This document shows positions 1 through 5,004 of a stretch of 10,072 nt of DNA, piece after piece. Each line of letters starts with the position of its first letter. The stretch's first letter is position 1. The notes below the pieces were generated by a model. That model searched no databases. It saw only the letters and a list, made by a program, of their open reading frames with translations, and was not told the origin of the DNA. Made by a program: the position numbers and the translations under genes. Source of the DNA: Verrucomicrobiota bacterium (GTDB lineage Bacteria > Verrucomicrobiota > Verrucomicrobiia > Opitutales > Opitutaceae); contig JAUPWC010000153.1 of NCBI GenBank assembly GCA_030916665.1, positions 1-10,072 of the forward strand, given 5' to 3'.

Positions 1-807
1 GCAGCGGAACACCGCGCCGGTGTCGGGCACGTGGATGGTGGCGCCCTCCTTGTTGGTCACGGCGCTGCCGCGGTCGCCGATGGAGAAATAGATGCGGCCG
101 TCGGGCCCGAGGGTCAGGCCGTGGAGATCGTGGCCGGTGTAGTTGAAGCGCACGCCGAATCCACGCAGCACTTCCTCCCGCTTCTCGGCCCGGTCTTTGC
201 CGGTGAGTTTCCAGAGCGAGGGGATGTTGGTGAACCAGACGTCGCCGCGGTAGGGCAGCACGCCGGAAGCCACGCCGTCCAGCGGGCCGCGGAAATCCTC
301 GGCGTATACCGAGGACTTGTCGGCCTTGCCGTCACCGTCGGTGTCCTCGAGGAGGCGCACGCGCTCCGACTCCTTGGAGAGTTCCTTCACTCCTTCCTTG
401 CCGAAGTTGCGCTCGATGGAGGCGAGCCAGTCCTTTTGGTCGCGGTTGGCGAGGTCGTCCTCGAGCATCCACATGTAGCCGCGGATATCCAGCGTGCTGG
501 AGCCGTAGCGGTAGGTCTCGGACACGAAGATGCGGCCCTGCTCGTCGAGCGCGAAGGCCACGGGATTGGCCAGCATGGGCTCGGCGGCCCAGAGGTGGGC
601 GGTGAGGCCGGCGGGGAGTTTCATGCGCCCGAGGGCGGCGCGGCCCTCATCGGAGGCCGGGTCGATCACCGCGGTGGTGAGGCGTTCGTCGTCGCTCAGC
701 TTGCCGCGGGCGACGGCGGGGCCAGTGTTTTCGGCGGCGGTGAGCGCAAGAATGGACGTAAGGACAGCGAGGGCGCTGGCCGCGTAGCGGGAATGGCGGG
801 GCAACAT
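1..807 (-). CDS. PVC-type 'membrane-bound dehydrogenase' family protein, N-terminal part (cut by window edge)
   Basis: The reading frame runs from ATG at 807 down to base 1 without a stop, giving 269 residues of an incomplete protein. Residues 1-25 form a signal peptide: basic start, then a hydrophobic run ending LALTAAEN. From about residue 60 the sequence matches the N-terminal beta-propeller-like domain of the Pirellula/Verrucomicrobium putative membrane-bound dehydrogenase family. Seen motifs are HLWAAEPMLANPVAFALDEQ (71-90), GRIFVSETYR (91-100), a Ca-binding-like EDTDGDGKAD loop (154-163), LDGVASGVLP (177-185) and HDLHGLTLGPDGRIYFSIGD (226-245). Family members usually continue with HEAT-like repeats and a C-terminal cytochrome c heme site; those parts would lie left of the window. 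It is secreted, and a role in oxidising sugars or other substrates is only inferred. It diverges from the gene at 912. The ATG at 807 is chosen because it places the signal peptide at the start; no clear Shine-Dalgarno precedes it. Confidence 0.88.
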   Translation of the reverse strand, partial: MLPRHSRYAASALAVLTSILALTAAENTGPAVARGKLSDDERLTTAVIDPASDEGRAALGRMKLPAGLTAHLWAAEPMLANPVAFALDEQGRIFVSETYRYGSSTLDIRGYMWMLEDDLANRDQKDWLASIERNFGKEGVKELSKESERVRLLEDTDGDGKADKSSVYAEDFRGPLDGVASGVLPYRGDVWFTNIPSLWKLTGKDRAEKREEVLRGFGVRFNYTGHDLHGLTLGPDGRIYFSIGDRGSAVTNKEGATIHVPDTGAVFRC

Positions 808-837: not shown

Positions 838-906
838 ATGGCAAGGAGGTGCATGGCTTTTTGTGCAACTTGCGCTTGCCGGACCTGCGGCGCCTTGCCG
901 GGATGA
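838..906 (+). promoter_or_regulatory. Possible Cys-rich leader ORF with strong ribosome-binding site upstream of the dehydrogenase
   Basis: The best Shine-Dalgarno-like sequence noticed in the window, AAGGAGGT at 843-850, lies just before an ATG at 853. That ATG opens a 17-codon frame, MAFCATCACRTCGALPG, with four cysteines; an in-frame ATG at 838 would lengthen it to 22 codons. Its TGA (904-906) overlaps an ATG at 903 that is in frame with the downstream dehydrogenase, an ATGA arrangement typical of translational coupling. The spacing from the ribosome-binding site to ATG 853 is short (about 3 bases), and the frame continues a long antisense shadow ORF. It may therefore be chance. Confidence 0.25.
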
Positions 907-911
907 GGGGC

Positions 912-1889
912 ATGAGCCTGACCGTCTGGACCAACCACGTTTTTCGTCCCGAAGCGCTGCCGGTTTTCGAGTCCCAGCTGCACGCCGCCGGCCACCGGCT
1001 GATCGTGTCGCCCAAGGCCTCGCCCATGGTGCTGGCCGCCGGGGCCGACGACCCCACGCTCGCGGAGGCCGACGTGGCCTTCGGCCAGCCCGATGTGGCG
1101 CAGACCATGGCGTGTCCGCGCCTGAAGTTCGTGGAGCTCAGCTCGGCCGGCTACACGCGCTACGACCGCTCCGACTTTCGTGCCGCGATGCAAGCCCGCG
1201 GCATGCCGGTGACCAACGCCTCGCAGGTTTTCGCCGATCCCTGCGCGCAGCATGTGCTCGGACAGATGCTGGCGCTTGAGCGCAACCTGCTCGTGCAGTT
1301 CCGCAACCAGCAGGGTCCGCGCGAGTGGCGCTACCTGGACGACCGCTTCACCAACGGCACGCTCACACGTCGCTCCGTGCTGTTGCTCGGCTACGGCAGC
1401 ATCGGCCGGCGGCTGGCGGAATTGCTCAAGCCTTTCGGCACGAAGGTGTCCGCCTACCGCCGCAACCCGCGCGGCGACGAGGGCGTGCCCGTCGTGGGCG
1501 AAGCCGGCTTGCCCGCGGCGCTGGCCGCGGCCGACCATGTGGTGAACATCCTGCCCGATTCGCCGGCCACGACCGGCTGGATGACCGCCGAGTGCTTCGC
1601 GCAGATGAAACCGGGCGCGCGTTTCTACAACATCGGGCGAGGCACCACGGTGGATCAGGCGGCGCTGATGGCGGCGCTCGAATCGGGGCACCTCGGCGCC
1701 GCCTATCTCGACGTGATGGACCCCGAGCCGCTGCCCCCGGCGCATCCGCTCTGGGCCGCGAAAAATTGTTTCATCACCTGCCACATCGGCGGCGGCACCC
1801 GCGATCAGGACGAAAACCTCGCGCGGCACTTCCTGGCGAATCTTGAGGCCTTCACCCGCGGCGCGTCGCTGGTGGACCGGATCATCTGA
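912..1889 (+). CDS. D-isomer-specific 2-hydroxyacid dehydrogenase
   Basis: This is a 325-residue cytoplasmic NAD(P)-dependent oxidoreductase that would interconvert a 2-oxoacid and its D-2-hydroxyacid; the substrate cannot be read from the sequence. Both family domains are present. The Rossmann nucleotide loop GYGSIG is at 160-165. The catalytic triad is visible as Arg243 (NIGRGTT), Glu272 (DVMDPEPLP) and His291 (TCHIGGG). Length and order fit the family (GyaR/Ghr/phosphoglycerate dehydrogenase-like). ATG 912 is preferred because the first beta strand (SLTVWTN) begins there; ATG 903 is an alternative that adds MRG, and a GTG at 849 would add an unlikely 21-residue extension. GAGGGG lies very close upstream of 912. 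The gene is on the same strand as the following bufferin-like cluster, but the 156-base gap and a candidate promoter suggest it is a separate unit. Confidence 0.92.
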   Translation: MSLTVWTNHVFRPEALPVFESQLHAAGHRLIVSPKASPMVLAAGADDPTLAEADVAFGQPDVAQTMACPRLKFVELSSAGYTRYDRSDFRAAMQARGMPVTNASQVFADPCAQHVLGQMLALERNLLVQFRNQQGPREWRYLDDRFTNGTLTRRSVLLLGYGSIGRRLAELLKPFGTKVSAYRRNPRGDEGVPVVGEAGLPAALAAADHVVNILPDSPATTGWMTAECFAQMKPGARFYNIGRGTTVDQAALMAALESGHLGAAYLDVMDPEPLPPAHPLWAAKNCFITCHIGGGTRDQDENLARHFLANLEAFTRGASLVDRII

Positions 1890-1936: not shown

Positions 1937-1965
1937 GGAATACCTCCGCACCTTCCGCGCTCTGA
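1937..1965 (+). promoter_or_regulatory. Candidate ECF sigma-type promoter for the precursor peptide cluster
   Basis: GGAATAC (1937-1943) and TCTGA (1961-1965) are separated by 17 bases, and the pair lies about 80 bases upstream of the precursor ATG. This resembles the GGAAC / N16-17 / TCTGA form recognised by sigmaE-like ECF factors. Some known bufferin operons are controlled by ECF sigma factors, which makes the match plausible. It is one short match in a 156-base gap and no sigma or anti-sigma gene is in the window. Confidence 0.35.
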
Positions 1966-2045
1966 TTAGTCCAATCCTTTCTTGCCGCCCGTTGGCATGG
2001 TGCCGTCGCGGTGGCCTTGAAACCCAAACCCAATCCATGATCCCC

Positions 2046-2393
2046 ATGAACAAGTCCACGCGACTCATCATCACCGCGGCCGCCATCGCCGGCCTCTACG
2101 CCGGTTCGCTCGCCGTCAAAGCCCATGCCGCCGAATCCGGCAGCGCCGCCCCCGCCGGCGAAAAGGCCAAGGATGCCTGCAAGGGAAAAGACGGCTGCAA
2201 GGCCAAGAAGGACAAGGAAGCCTGCAAGGGTAAGGACGGTTGCAAAGCCAAGGAGGGCAAGGAGGCTTGCAAGGCGAAGGACGGCTGCAAGGGCAAGGAC
2301 ACCTGCAAGTCCGCCGACGGCAAGGACACCTGCAAGGCGAAGGAAGCCTGCAAGAGCAAGGATGGCTGCAAGGCGGCCGACAAGAAGGGCTGA
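2046..2393 (+). CDS. Secreted Cys/Lys-rich repeat peptide, candidate bufferin-type RiPP precursor
   Basis: The product is 115 residues. Residues 1-28 are a Sec signal peptide (MNKSTR, hydrophobic core, cleavage expected after AHA). The rest is low-complexity: from residue 44 onward only A, C, D, E, G, K, S and T occur. Ten cysteines (45, 51, 60, 66, 75, 81, 87, 96, 102, 108) are each followed by Lys, in a motif [KE/D][A/G/T]CK; the commonest forms are KDGCK and KEACK. The mature part has no His, Met or aromatic residue. The next genes encode an MNIO (DUF692) enzyme and a DUF2063 protein, the pair that modifies cysteines in bufferins and in Haemophilus HvfA, whose EGKCG repeats this recalls. 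I infer a modified periplasmic metal-binding (probably copper) peptide. It is not the DUF2282 bufferin type. An in-frame ATG at 2037 would add MIP; 2046 gives the more usual MNKSTR start. Confidence 0.82.
   Translation: MNKSTRLIITAAAIAGLYAGSLAVKAHAAESGSAAPAGEKAKDACKGKDGCKAKKDKEACKGKDGCKAKEGKEACKAKDGCKGKDTCKSADGKDTCKAKEACKSKDGCKAADKKG
2175..2390 (+). repeat. Tandem repeats inside the precursor gene (15-codon unit, one 12-codon variant)
   Basis: Residues 44-115 divide into blocks of 15, 15, 12, 15 and 15 codons, each starting [A/T]CK. The first two 45-base copies (2175-2219 and 2220-2264) encode ACKGKDGCKAKKDKE and ACKGKDGCKAKEGKE and remain similar at the DNA level, with mostly third-position differences. 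Later blocks are more diverged. The pattern suggests growth of the core by in-frame duplication. Confidence 0.75.
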
Positions 2394-2459
2394 GCGCGCG
2401 GCTGGCACGATTTCGCGCCCGCTTCCCGGAGATCGCGTCCGACGCCCGGTCTCTGTTTG

Positions 2460-2538
2460 TTGTAGGGCGGGGTTCGGAGACCCCGCCCGACAATCAGCCT
2501 GTCAGAAACTCGACGGCGGTCATAGACCGCCGCTACAA
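2460..2538. repeat. REP-like palindromic element with two hairpins and TTGTAG/CTACAA ends
   Basis: The element starts TTGTAG (2460-2465) and ends CTACAA (2533-2538). The first hairpin has a perfect 9-bp stem, 2465-2473 against 2480-2488 (gggcggggt / accccgccc), extended outward by TTGT/ACAA across one mismatch. The second has a perfect 8-bp stem, 2514-2521 against 2525-2532 (cggcggtc / gaccgccg). Two hairpins between short inverted ends resemble REP/BIME elements mobilised by RAYT transposases. It fills the gap between the precursor and bufB and ends 20 bases before the bufB start codon. In mRNA the first stem could slow decay or weaken read-through. Confidence 0.75.
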
Positions 2539-2558
2539 TTCTCCCGCCTTTCCTGTTC

Positions 2559-3443
2559 ATGCCCGCCAATCCTTACAACGGCTTCACCGACTACGGCATC
2601 GGCCTCGGGCTGCGCGTGCCGCACTACGACCACATCCTGTCGGAGAAGCCGACGGTGGACTGGTTCGAAATCATCTCGGAGACTTTTATGGTGGACGGCG
2701 GACGGCCGCTTGAGGTGCTCGATCGCATCCTCGCGCAATACCGTGTCGTCCAGCACGGCGTGTCGCTCTACTTTGGCTCGGCCGACGATCCTGATCGCGC
2801 GCACCTGAAGAAGCTCAAGGCCCTCACGAAGCGCACGAAGACACCGTGGCTCTCCGACCACCTCTGCTGGGGCAGCGTGGACGGCACTTATTCGCACGAT
2901 CTGCTGCCGATGCCCTACACCTTTGCGGCGGCAAAACGCACGGCGGAGAAAATCCGCATGGTGCGCGACTACCTCGAGCTGCCCATCGCGGTCGAGAATG
3001 TCAGTTCCTACACCGAGTTCCATGTCTCCGAGATGACCGAGTGGGAGTTTCTCGCCGAGGTCGTCGAACTGGCCGACTGCGGAATCCTGCTCGACGTGAA
3101 CAATATCTACGTCTCATCGAAGAACCACGGCTTCGACCCCTACGACTACGTCAACAACGTCCCGCACCATCGCGTCGCACAGATGCACATCGCCGGGCAC
3201 ACGAAGTTTGAGAAATACATTCTCGATACGCACGACCATCCCGTGCTCGATCCCGTGTGGAAGCTTTACGCCCACGCCATCAAACTCTGCGGCGTGACCG
3301 CCACGCTGCTCGAGTGGGACGACAAGATCCCCTCTTTTCAGGAAGTCCACGACGAGGCCCTCAAGGCCAACCAGTTCATTACGGAAGCGCGTGAAGCGAA
3401 AATCCCCGCGCCGAAGAAAACCAGCCGCGTTCGCGTGCGTTGA
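2559..3443 (+). CDS. bufB: DUF692/MNIO multinuclear iron oxidase, bufferin maturase (BufB-like)
   Basis: This 294-residue TIM-barrel protein belongs to the multinuclear non-heme iron-dependent oxidative enzymes (MNIO, formerly DUF692), relatives of MbnB, HvfB and BufB. These act in the cytoplasm and oxidatively rearrange cysteines of a precursor peptide before export. Metal-site motifs appear in family order: GIGLGLR (13-19), WFEIISE (35-41), HGVSL (66-70), SDHLCW (99-104), HDLLP (113-117), VENVSSY (145-151), LLDVNNIYVSSKNH (177-190), HIAGH (210-214), DTHDHPV (223-229) and LLEWDD (250-255). Conserved His, Asp, Asn and Glu ligands in these motifs appear intact, so the enzyme looks active. A short basic tail (KKTSRVRVR) ends the protein. 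It lies 165 bases after the precursor and is followed by bufC after a repeat. ATG 2559 has no Shine-Dalgarno; the conserved start GFTDYGIGLGLR fits it. Confidence 0.95.
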   Translation: MPANPYNGFTDYGIGLGLRVPHYDHILSEKPTVDWFEIISETFMVDGGRPLEVLDRILAQYRVVQHGVSLYFGSADDPDRAHLKKLKALTKRTKTPWLSDHLCWGSVDGTYSHDLLPMPYTFAAAKRTAEKIRMVRDYLELPIAVENVSSYTEFHVSEMTEWEFLAEVVELADCGILLDVNNIYVSSKNHGFDPYDYVNNVPHHRVAQMHIAGHTKFEKYILDTHDHPVLDPVWKLYAHAIKLCGVTATLLEWDDKIPSFQEVHDEALKANQFITEAREAKIPAPKKTSRVRVR

Positions 3444-3472
3444 CGCCGTGGAGAACCAAGGCATTTCCATTA

Positions 3473-3560
3473 CCTGTCATTCTGAGCGGAGCGAAGAATC
3501 CAGAATGGCGTTCGCCAGCGTGCATGCTGCTGGATCCTTCGCTCCGCTCAGGATGACAGG
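3473..3560. repeat. Large inverted repeat, 31-bp arms, of the 'GTCATTCTGAGCGGAGCGAAG' class
   Basis: The left arm (3473-3503) and right arm (3530-3560) are reverse complements at 29 of 31 positions, separated by 26 bases that contain a smaller ggcg-tt-cgcc hairpin. The arm core GTCATTCTGAGCGGAGCGAA is, from general knowledge, a dispersed intergenic repeat in many bacterial phyla. The right arm ends 8 bases before the bufC ATG, so the hairpin occupies almost the whole 125-base bufB-bufC gap and would border the bufC ribosome-binding region in the mRNA. Confidence 0.85.
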
Positions 3561-3568
3561 CTGCTGAT

Positions 3569-4516
3569 ATGGCTGCTAAATCGAAAGACTCGAAGGCTGC
3601 GGTCACAAAGGCCCCCGCGCGCGTTGACTCCACGCGTGCGCTCGCCGCGCTGCAGCGCGCGATGTGGGGCCTCGTGTCGCAGCCGCTCACGGCGGCCAAC
3701 CGCATGAAGCCGCGCACGCGCGACGGCCGTTCGACCGCCGCGGCCGCCGCGGAGATCGCGAAGCCCAACGACCGGCTCACGTCCTTCGAGCGCCTCGAGA
3801 TCTACAACCGCATGTATTGGTTCCGGGTGCTCGACAGCCTCTACGAGGATTGCCCGGGCCTGCGCGCCGTGCTCGGCGACGCAAAGTTTATGCGGATGGC
3901 CGAGGCCTACCTGCAGAAATATCCCTCCCGCTCCTTCACGCTCCGCAACCTGCCGTCGCGGCTGGAGAAATTTCTGCGCGAGGAACCCAAGTGGACCAGG
4001 CCGCACACCGCGCTCTGCCTCGATCTCGTCCGCTTCGAGTGGGCGCAGGTGGAGGTTTACGACGGCGGGGCCAAGCCGCTCTTCCGGGTCGAGGACCTCG
4101 CCGGCATCAATCCGGCCAAGGTTCGGCTCGCGCTTCAGCCTTATCTCCAGCTTCTCCAGCTCGATTACCCGGTGGACGACTTCCTCATCGCCATCAAAAA
4201 ACGCGAAGCGCTCCTGCGCGGCGACGCCAGCAACGCCCCGACACGCGTGCGCACGTCCAAGGCCAGCAAGGTGCCGCTGCCGAGACGCGAAAAGTGCGCG
4301 GTCGCCGTGCACCGCATGGACGGACGGATCTACTTCAAACGCCTCGAACCCGCCGCGTGCAAGGTGCTGCTCGCCATCCGCGCGGGCAAACCGCTGGCGC
4401 AGGCCCTCGCCGCCGGTCTCCCGCGCGCGAAATCGAAGCAGCTCGAGTGGGCCGGCAAGGTCCAGAGCTGGTTCTGCACCTGGATGCAGCTGGGGTGGTT
4501 CTGCCGTCGGGAATAA
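3569..4516 (+). CDS. bufC: DUF2063 family protein, MNIO partner (BufC/HvfC-like)
   Basis: This 315-residue cytoplasmic protein carries the DUF2063 'putative DNA-binding' domain. Despite that name, the family is the partner of MNIO enzymes in bufferin and HvfA systems and is thought to present the precursor to the enzyme. An Ala/Lys-rich stretch (1-20) comes first. Family landmarks are then RLEIYNRMYWFRVLDSLYED (75-94) followed by CPGL, and YPSRSFTLRNLPSRLEKFL (about 122-140). A basic linker (TRVRTSKASKVPLPRRE) leads to a compact C-terminal domain (about 255-315) with VHRMDGRIYFKRL and a helix-rich end. This may be a winged-helix or RRE-like peptide-binding module; that is inference. It follows bufB and precedes the DoxX gene by 26 bases, supporting one operon. 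The start has only a weak ribosome-binding site, and the upstream palindrome leaves little room for one. Confidence 0.9.
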   Translation: MAAKSKDSKAAVTKAPARVDSTRALAALQRAMWGLVSQPLTAANRMKPRTRDGRSTAAAAAEIAKPNDRLTSFERLEIYNRMYWFRVLDSLYEDCPGLRAVLGDAKFMRMAEAYLQKYPSRSFTLRNLPSRLEKFLREEPKWTRPHTALCLDLVRFEWAQVEVYDGGAKPLFRVEDLAGINPAKVRLALQPYLQLLQLDYPVDDFLIAIKKREALLRGDASNAPTRVRTSKASKVPLPRREKCAVAVHRMDGRIYFKRLEPAACKVLLAIRAGKPLAQALAAGLPRAKSKQLEWAGKVQSWFCTWMQLGWFCRRE

Positions 4517-4542
4517 TCGTCCGGCCGGTTCCTCCCACGGCC

Positions 4543-5004
4543 ATGCAAGTCCGCCTCCTGCTCGCCAAGCTCGATTCCGTCGCCGCGTTGCTGCAATCGC
4601 CGCTGCTCCTCGCCATCCGCCTTTTCTGGGGCTGGCAGTTTGCCCAGACCGGCTGGGGCAAGCTCATGAACCTCGACCGCACCGCGGGCTTCTTCGCCTC
4701 GCTCGACATCCCGCTGCCCAAGCTGAACGCGATCCTGGCCGGTGGCACGGAGTGTGTCGGCGGCATCCTGCTCGCGCTCGGGCTGTTCGCGCGTCCGGCG
4801 GCGGTGCCGCTGATCTTCACCATGCTCGTGGCCTACGGGACGGCGGATCGCGACGCGCTCCAGGCGATTTTCACCGATCCCGATCAATTCGCCGGCGCCG
4901 CACCGTTCCTGTTTCTGCTGGCGTCGCTCCTCGTGCTGGCCTTCGGCCCGGGGAAACTTTCGCTGGACGCGTTGCTGGGCAGGGGTGGACGCGCGGCGAA
5001 GTGA
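4543..5004 (+). CDS. DoxX family inner-membrane protein, cluster accessory
   Basis: The 153-residue protein has four hydrophobic segments at about 15-37, 62-82, 86-100 and 118-136. DoxX signatures are LLLAIRLFWGWQFAQTGWGK (21-40), the FFASLDIPLPKLNAILAGGTE region (50-70) with its conserved acidic residue, and the closing FGPGKLSLDALL (134-145). DoxX proteins occur often as the fourth gene of bufferin/HvfA clusters, with no firmly defined biochemical role; involvement in membrane redox or in handling the modified peptide is conceivable. It starts 26 bases after bufC, with no terminator between, so co-transcription is likely. It is the last plus-strand gene of the cluster; the next gene runs toward it and stops 6 bases away. 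The ATG at 4543 gives a normal family length. Confidence 0.9.
   Translation: MQVRLLLAKLDSVAALLQSPLLLAIRLFWGWQFAQTGWGKLMNLDRTAGFFASLDIPLPKLNAILAGGTECVGGILLALGLFARPAAVPLIFTMLVAYGTADRDALQAIFTDPDQFAGAAPFLFLLASLLVLAFGPGKLSLDALLGRGGRAAK

Follow-up and report, generated by a model that had tools for sequence, protein, structure and literature searches.

The window analysed here, 10,072 nucleotides of a Verrucomicrobiota bacterium (GenBank assembly GCA_030916665.1, contig JAUPWC010000153.1), carries four consecutive genes on the forward strand (open reading frame calls) for a short cysteine-rich precursor peptide, a multinuclear non-heme iron-dependent oxidative enzyme (MNIO), a DUF2063 partner and a DoxX family protein (Table 1). 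A first-pass annotation, made from the letters alone, had described a bufferin-like operon running in one direction in a verrucomicrobial lineage; the strand and the Pfam matches agreed with it (for the MNIO, MbnB_TglH_ChrH at 347.7 bits), and the genome belongs to the Opitutaceae. The start that it gave, position 1937, is the first base of a promoter-like element. We read the locus as a copper-buffering operon for a ribosomally synthesised and post-translationally modified peptide (RiPP) of the Cys-Lys (bufferin-2) type, with a probability of about 0.75 as judged from the sequences. The type of operon is known; it stands here with an unusual branch of the precursor, a one-residue correlate in the enzyme and a candidate regulon.

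Table 1. Features of the operon and its surroundings, in window coordinates.
Feature	Position	Strand	Remarks
Promoter-like element GGAATA-N17-CTCTGAT	1937..1966	+	5' of the precursor gene
Precursor peptide gene	2046..2393	+	115 aa; all ten Cys within K[DE][AGT]CK; alternative ATG start at 2037
Signal-like N-terminus MNKSTRLIITAAAIAGLYAGSLAVKAHA, candidate leader	2046..2129	+	conserved AAxAGLxxG; cleavage site by eye
Degenerate form of the 6-Cys BufA2 core (last six Cys)	2268..2369	+	spacing 5-5-8-5-5 (canonical 5-5-6-5-5)
Pair of short units from a second dispersed palindromic family	2466..2545	+	between precursor and MNIO genes; 54 match rows in the source genome
MNIO (BufB-type) maturase gene	2559..3443	+	294 aa; NF050167 336.3 bits, cut-off 310
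MNIO codon 42, Thr replacing Asn	2682..2684	+	from the MNIO column comparison
MNIO Asp254 (catalytic base) and Asp255 (Cys-Lys selectivity residue)	3318..3323	+	by alignment
Long imperfect palindrome	3473..3560	+	lies between the genes for MNIO and DUF2063 protein; arms of 31 nt, complementary at 94%
DUF2063 partner (PME type 1-like) gene	3569..4516	+	315 aa; PF09836 51.1 bits
Second promoter-like element GGAATA-N16-CTCCCAC	4510..4538	+	directly 5' of doxX
DoxX family membrane protein gene	4543..5004	+	153 aa; PF07681 79.5 bits

The Precursor Is a Selected Lys/Cys Repeat Peptide

The ten K[D/E][G/A/T]CK sites that had been counted from the sequence were all present: every cysteine of the precursor lay inside K[DE][AGT]CK. 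The mature part counts 87 residues, with 26 Lys, 16 Asp/Glu and 10 Cys, and in none of 100,000 shuffled versions of it did more than three cysteines fall in the motif. The cysteines were spaced 5, 8, 5, 8, 5, 5, 8, 5 and 5 residues apart, which is the C-x5/8-C pattern already noted. The peptide had been called secreted, and its signal-bearing N-terminus supported this. Within the segment, A12, A13, A15, G16, L17 and G20 were invariant in 37 chosen precursors, and A13, G16, L17 and G20 in 29 chosen precursors that included Acidobacteriota.

At the DNA level the gene was built of tandem repeats; their periods ranged from 12 to 63 bases, with 45 and 63 the best. Compared with the nearest relative, L002, there were 17 synonymous and five non-synonymous differences, giving a synonymous divergence (dS) of 0.27, a non-synonymous divergence (dN) of 0.02 and a dN/dS of about 0.07; compared with L003, the difference was one six-residue unit. 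These comparisons indicated a selected gene whose number of units changes, and on the substitution counts the precursor is under purifying selection relative to L002.

A chain of this composition could also be an unmodified, metallothionein-like peptide beside an MNIO that acts elsewhere, since the mature part is of low complexity and AlphaFold found no fold in the precursor. The mean predicted local distance difference test value was 43.7 for the window precursor and 51.0 for the 6-Cys relative L065, so these models were too poor for comparison. Against such a chain stood the conserved motif of the signal segment, the lysine that followed every cysteine in L001 and L002 (10/10 each) and in L003 (11/11), and the finding that, among 57 genomes with the source genome counted in, precursor and close MNIO occur together in 16; we regard such a chain as very improbable. 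Homologues without an MNIO neighbour, which the first-pass annotation had named as grounds for giving up its reading, were thus hardly seen. The exceptions among the 57 were a genome with a weak precursor match containing a stop and no MNIO (G036) and one with only a remote MNIO (G053). Collagen-like and wall-binding NCBIfam matches of the precursor reached no more than 27.9 bits against 325 (E 1.1e-6) and were rejected as low-complexity matches.

The Repeat Type Derives From a BufA2 Core

The precursor matched no Pfam family above its cut-off. As the first-pass annotation had stated, it was neither a DUF2282 (Buf1) bufferin, with no match in a Pfam scan at E<=1, nor an EGKCG peptide, as Lys-Cys repeats were absent and KC did not occur at all. 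That reading had also placed it outside the described types, and here it overlooked a BufA2/Buf2 origin to which the BufB-type enzyme, the Asp found in place of Phe at its selectivity site and the 6-Cys precursors of relatives point. Its question of whether the precursor belongs to a described BufA or HvfA subfamily received a divided answer: the lineage is that of a described family, but the BufA2 model NF050166 gave 14 bits with a cut-off of 60, and the ten cysteines depart from the strict pattern of six or twelve conserved ones.

For the comparison with relatives, the open reading frame upstream of the MNIO was taken from the 57 genomes and from GTDB species contigs (the best 80 of at least 559 relatives). 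Left out of the locus counts were L020, L023 and L028, which lie on the same contigs as L007, L009 and L013, and L017–L019, whose MNIO is remote or partial. Relatives encoded 6-Cys BufA2-like precursors at the same operon position. At 93 distinct MNIO loci, 55 precursors had the 6-Cys core alone and 14 had it together with additional units or cysteines, so that the canonical C-x5-C-x5-C-x6-C-x5-C-x5-C was kept in 69 of 93; the remainder comprised 11 reduced forms with three to five cysteines (ten from Acidobacteriota), seven core-less KD repeats, two others and four that were not found. In the MNIO tree the seven KD repeats fell inside one clade of 34 rows, surrounded by cores; the Opitutaceae are among the bacteria with core-less repeats of this type. 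A search of 5.8 billion proteins found 148 homologues of the precursor, and among the 120 listed a pattern of our own sorted 84 as core, 29 as KD-type and seven as other.

A profile of the core was built from 43 6-Cys precursors taken as non-Opitutaceae and scored without the HMMER composition correction. The mature part of the window precursor reached 43.2 bits over profile positions 1–36 of 37, best over its last six cysteines, and none of 500 shuffles with all CK pairs fixed attained this score, which indicated a similarity beyond that due to composition and to the placing of Cys and Lys. Two other overlapping registers scored 31.3 and 37.4 bits, and for the other six KD-repeat rows between 0 and 8 of 500 such shuffles reached the observed score; composition and repetition therefore explain part of the similarity. 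When ten relatives were scanned with NF050166, the five core-bearing ones gave 36.7–48.6 bits, all under 60, and hence the profile is narrow for this branch. The KD-type relatives gave 18.8 (L022), 20.2 (L023) and 18.8 bits (L031), with no match at E<=0.1 for L003 and L030.

Judged by these sequences, the precursor is derived from BufA2 (the Buf2, "Cys-Lys" lineage), and it is not filed as a BufA2 member because it falls short of the family profile and of the six-Cys pattern. In this lineage, the alignments indicate, tandem K[DE]xCK units have replaced the 6-Cys core, and duplication changes how many of them there are. This ties a precursor of the repeat type, scoring below the family model's cut-off, to the bufferin-2 lineage; intermediates persist in relatives.

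Other precursor forms were recorded as well. Seven Acidobacteriota loci (L063, L067, L071, L072, L077, L084 and L099), one clade in the MNIO tree, encoded a reduced bufferin with four cysteines spaced 5-13-5. The L006 precursor had 14 cysteines, made up of one CKGKDGC pair and two full 6-Cys cores in tandem. At L066, two BufA2-like precursors preceded one MNIO, each with a lipoprotein-like extra cysteine (by eye). Two short proteins, P0103 and P0109, combine three HACKGKDGCK units with another signal segment and are perhaps a further independent repeat form, and in genome G058 a distant MNIO (L259, 50% identity) lay near a Cys/Gly-rich reading frame of another kind with a twin-arginine-like start.

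The MNIO Has Marks of a Cys-Lys Enzyme and a Substituted Residue 42

The MNIO passed the BufB model and gave 244 bits with the HvfB model, below its cut-off of 360. Likewise, the DoxX protein stayed below the HvfX model NF050144 (70.8 bits, cut-off 80) and the DUF2063 protein below the HvfC model NF050145 (49.5 bits, cut-off 142); no PDB relative of the latter was found at E<=0.1. Residues D100, H101, N147, N182, H210, H214, H225 and D254, which we take to be the active-site motif residues (in part after PMC13419390), were identical in 93/93 MNIOs, and position 255 was Asp in 86/93. Aligned with the HvfB relative 3bww, the window enzyme had EWDD opposite ERDF, so that Asp and not Phe follows the catalytic Asp. 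At this selectivity site, Lys-Cys enzymes have Phe, and BufB2 and other Cys-Lys enzymes have Asp (PMC13097082). The locus thus showed two marks of a Cys-Lys captophorin, Asp at the place of FonB Phe250 and multiple Cys-Lys motifs (10/10 cysteines) beside a putative MNIO-PME1 pair, here the adjacent MNIO and DUF2063 genes. Selenocysteine at the in-frame TGA of some family MNIOs was considered and rejected, these codons being C-terminal stops in the seven loci examined.

A scan of some 290 MNIO columns was made for residues that follow the type of substrate. Ten columns passed a loose filter, and column 42 alone separated the groups at 100% against 0%: in the first 93 loci it was Thr in 7/7 KD-repeat enzymes and Asn in 86/86 others. 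Because the rule came from a scan, it was tested on further genomes of the family, 73 of 252 of which hold an MNIO at E 1e-60. Among loci outside the first set, Thr42 was present in 8/8 KD-repeat rows and Asn42 in 26/26 core-bearing rows; a ninth outside locus, L206, had Thr42 and a precursor that is KD-type by eye. Over all 133 MNIO rows, 16 had Thr42, all with core-less K[DE]xC precursors, and 117 had Asn42 (eight rows were without a classed precursor, two of which, L206 and L256, were read by eye). None of the 15 Thr42 rows with a found precursor had N-x-C or GGC sites in the mature part, and the only Asn42 rows with a found precursor that lacked both were L027 and L226. The reduced Acidobacteriota precursors had no full core but kept N-x-C sites and Asn42. 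Asn also stood at the aligned place in 3bww, 8hci (DUF692/TglH) and MbnB chains (pairwise alignments, by eye). Four core-less, K/C-rich loci retained Asn42 (L226, L215, L027 and, by eye, L256), and the link between Thr42 and core-less precursors is therefore one-way.

On the tree, repeat type and residue 42 each changed three times, few of these changes lay on well-supported branches, and near kin swell the counts given above. Two independent pairs of trait changes on supported branches were found in one tree and one in a larger tree; with so few, a tree test of the coupling cannot reach significance. In our reading of the sequences, the core sites would demand Asn42, and after their loss Thr may have been fixed by selection or by drift. 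The change to Thr is confined to enzymes whose precursors have lost both the core and its N-x-C/GGC sites. Residue 42 gives a single position at which substrate choice could be probed across a large enzyme family; a selectivity study of FonB probed Arg15, Arg16, Asp249 and Phe250.

The loss of Asn42 might alternatively change the outcome on the repeats, to another heterocycle or a partial oxidation, or alter the set of cysteines that is modified. The conservation of Asn42 in 117/133 MNIOs and in 3bww, 8hci and MbnB, across different chemistries, would suit this proposal, as would the confinement of Thr42 to enzymes with core-less repeats. However, the Thr42 enzymes have the active-site motif residues and Asp255 unchanged, and 5-thiooxazole is the product of all characterised MNIO-PME1 cases (PMC13097082). 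We consider a different product improbable.

A Candidate ECF Regulon Includes the Operon

Of 33 Opitutaceae loci, 30 had the element GGAATA-N16/17-CTC 5' of the precursor, against 0.045 expected from order-1 resampling; it was also present there in 7 of 55 non-Opitutaceae loci and in 28 of 36 new loci of the family. The motif had been read off an alignment of 22 loci contained in the 33; the family was assigned by titles or tree place and is doubtful for L035. In the source genome, GGAATAN{16,17}CTCNNAY had six matches and the reversed control none, and in the genus it was matched in 21/21 genomes, above the control in 20 (G002 had 1 against 4). Directly 5' of doxX it occurred at 12/12 genus loci in which doxX was found and at 2/18 other Opitutaceae loci (L019 was counted in this tally).

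Furthermore, the element preceded MsrA at 15/15 fetched sites, picked for a similar spacer, MsrB at eight sites, and also DUF1223 and other secreted reading frames. The genes behind it were read by eye, and one MsrA, two MsrB and the DUF1223 protein were checked by Pfam. Some matches made no sense, such as one inside a long receptor reading frame (L103), and behind several (e.g., L140, L152 and L159) no such gene was evident. In the source genome, one element stood directly 5' of a gene for an extracytoplasmic function (ECF) sigma factor (L104:885-1436), and another 5' of a small Cys-rich reading frame with a signal-like start, about 0.5 kb behind which a CusB/HMBD adaptor begins.

The element lay upstream of 25 of 30 fetched homologues of this ECF gene, within 60 bases in 23. 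The ECF gene adjoined the operon in L027, L033 and L039 and, by coordinates, in G024, G066, G154 and the second G069 locus. Outside the Opitutaceae it did so in L045, L050, L064, L074 and L096, and each of these five loci had the element 5' of the precursor, so that the neighbour accompanied 5/7 motif-bearing loci (Fisher 6e-6); since L074 and L096 are near-identical, this link rests on four lineages. Distant ECF genes at L073, L077 and L099 (25–28% identity) were not counted. Across the family, the ECF gene was present in 63/73 genomes with an MNIO and in 63/179 others, kinship being uncorrected. The protein encoded beside it was anti-sigma-like (NCBIfam 26.1 bits against 100), with weak similarity to DUF3379 and, in its C-terminal part, two Cys and one His shared by 85% or more of the aligned rows.

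Taken together, the sequence evidence makes it most likely that the operon belongs to an ECF stress regulon through GGAATA-N16/17-CTC. GGAATA and ECF sigma factors occur together in papers titled on Corynebacterium and Sinorhizobium. A sigma factor and a promoter can be proposed for bufferin-2 operons, in which a survey from 2025 reported no sigma genes. Precedents for ECF control are the sigma-F of Caulobacter (PMC3511200) and the sigma-E of Neisseria (PMC2893595).

The same regulon suggests that the system might serve against oxidative stress of the cell envelope (by hypochlorous acid or by sulfur- or metal-driven oxidation) and not copper, with the peptide as a redox sink or a chelator of another metal. 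The element common to secreted MsrA, MsrB and the ECF gene and the C-terminal Cys and His residues of the anti-sigma-like protein speak for it, as do the control of MsrA/MsrB and its own operon by Neisseria sigma-E (PMC2893595) and the response of Caulobacter sigma-F genes to dichromate (PMC3511200). Nevertheless, a copper-type efflux adaptor, CusB/HMBD, lies near one element of the source genome, and the products of Buf1 and EGKCG systems bind copper (PMC12452194, PMC13097082). A role in oxidative stress is unlikely on this balance, although it is the strongest competitor of copper buffering.

A Proposed Route to a Copper-Binding Peptide

In the copper-buffering reading, the ECF sigma factor of the stress regulon would turn on the operon and, separately, doxX. 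The signal segment would serve as leader for the DUF2063 partner with its presumed RiPP recognition element; such a role is said, by the title of a cited study, to hold for bufferin. It is also described for HvfA (PMC13419390). The MNIO, an iron oxidase, would then read each Cys with its following Lys through Asp255 and might convert up to ten cysteines to 5-thiooxazoles, at -4 Da each, if the chemistry of the family holds. The peptide would be exported, cleaved and bind copper in the periplasm, an EGKCG-like chain of repeats with CK instead of KC. By analogy, the product is most likely a periplasmic copper-binding thiooxazole peptide. The oxazolone/thioamide that the first-pass annotation had cited for HvfA has since been revised to 5-thiooxazole (PMC13097082).

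Several observations weigh against parts of this reading: the low score of the precursor with the BufA2 family model, the four core-less loci that keep Asn42, the 10/73 MNIO genomes without the ECF gene, a genus genome of 99% completeness (G009) in which elements were present and no close ECF match was found, and the MsrA/MsrB genes behind the element, which point as much to oxidative stress. A more inclusive proposal is offered only tentatively: maturase and substrate may have switched together in the Opitutaceae, with an elastic chain of K[DE]xCK units in place of the 6-Cys substrate and with residue 42, which is Asn in methanobactin and pearlin enzymes too, as a new determinant of site acceptance or product, and all of it may be run by the ECF factor, often encoded afar, via GGAATA-N16/17-CTC together with repair by periplasmic MsrA/MsrB.

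Comparison With Described Systems

With the BufA2/Buf2 bufferins (Buf_6/12Cys, NF050166) the locus shared a signal-bearing precursor, CK motifs, the bufABC-doxX order, an MNIO of BufB type whose selectivity site is Asp and, in near relatives, the 6-Cys core. It differed in having ten cysteines and not six or 12, the last six spaced 5-5-8-5-5, and K[DE][AGT] where N-x and GG precede Cys in those peptides. The EGKCG peptides (HvfA/oxazolin, fontiphorin, gonophorin and bulbicupramide) likewise have variable short Cys repeats with MNIO and DUF2063 proteins, and DoxX in HvfA; here, in contrast, Lys follows Cys, KC is absent, and Asp, not Phe, follows the catalytic Asp.

The Caulobacter sigma-F/NrsF regulon (Buf1) has in common an autoregulated ECF sigma factor, DUF692 operons, doxX and a sulfur-redox enzyme, but it uses GTAACC-N16-CGAA and a DUF1109 anti-sigma factor, whereas GGAATA-N16/17-CTC and a weakly DUF3379-like protein were found here. 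The Neisseria sigma-E (RpoE) regulon likewise puts MsrA/MsrB under an ECF factor, along with an operon that contains a DoxX-like gene and an NGO1945-type partner; its zinc anti-sigma factor MseR and its -35 sequence GTAAGGTT are different. Six-Cys DUF692/DUF2063 clusters from Antarctic soil (PMC8692599) show the same order of short Cys precursor, DUF692 and DUF2063, and metal chelation was proposed for them. They are of Gammaproteobacteria (UBA7966), their precursor matched almost exclusively Proteobacteria, and no core-less repeat was seen in the retrieved text.

No literature joining bufferins with Verrucomicrobiota, or Opitutaceae with an ECF sigma factor, was found in a search that did not extend to supplements and most subscription journals. 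The main texts of PMC12452194 and PMC13097082, as far as available, did not mention Verrucomicrob. Besides PMC8692599, DUF692 and Verrucomicrob came together in a phage-interaction study, the accessible part of which showed no such precursors.

Surroundings of the Operon

The source genome is 85% complete, and its single MNIO is therefore a lower bound. Upstream of the precursor, a D-2-hydroxyacid dehydrogenase gene (window 849-1889) was present that also lay near the operon in 18 Opitutaceae loci; tblastn did not find it near the Acidobacteriota loci. Window positions 1-807 hold, on the reverse strand, a partial gene for a haem-binding protein of the PVC (Planctomycetes, Verrucomicrobia, Chlamydiae) type (TIGR02604 99.2 bits, cut-off 122.2). 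The long palindrome between the MNIO and DUF2063 genes had 59 match rows in the source genome, both strands counted, and thus belongs to a dispersed family resembling repetitive extragenic palindromes (REP-like).

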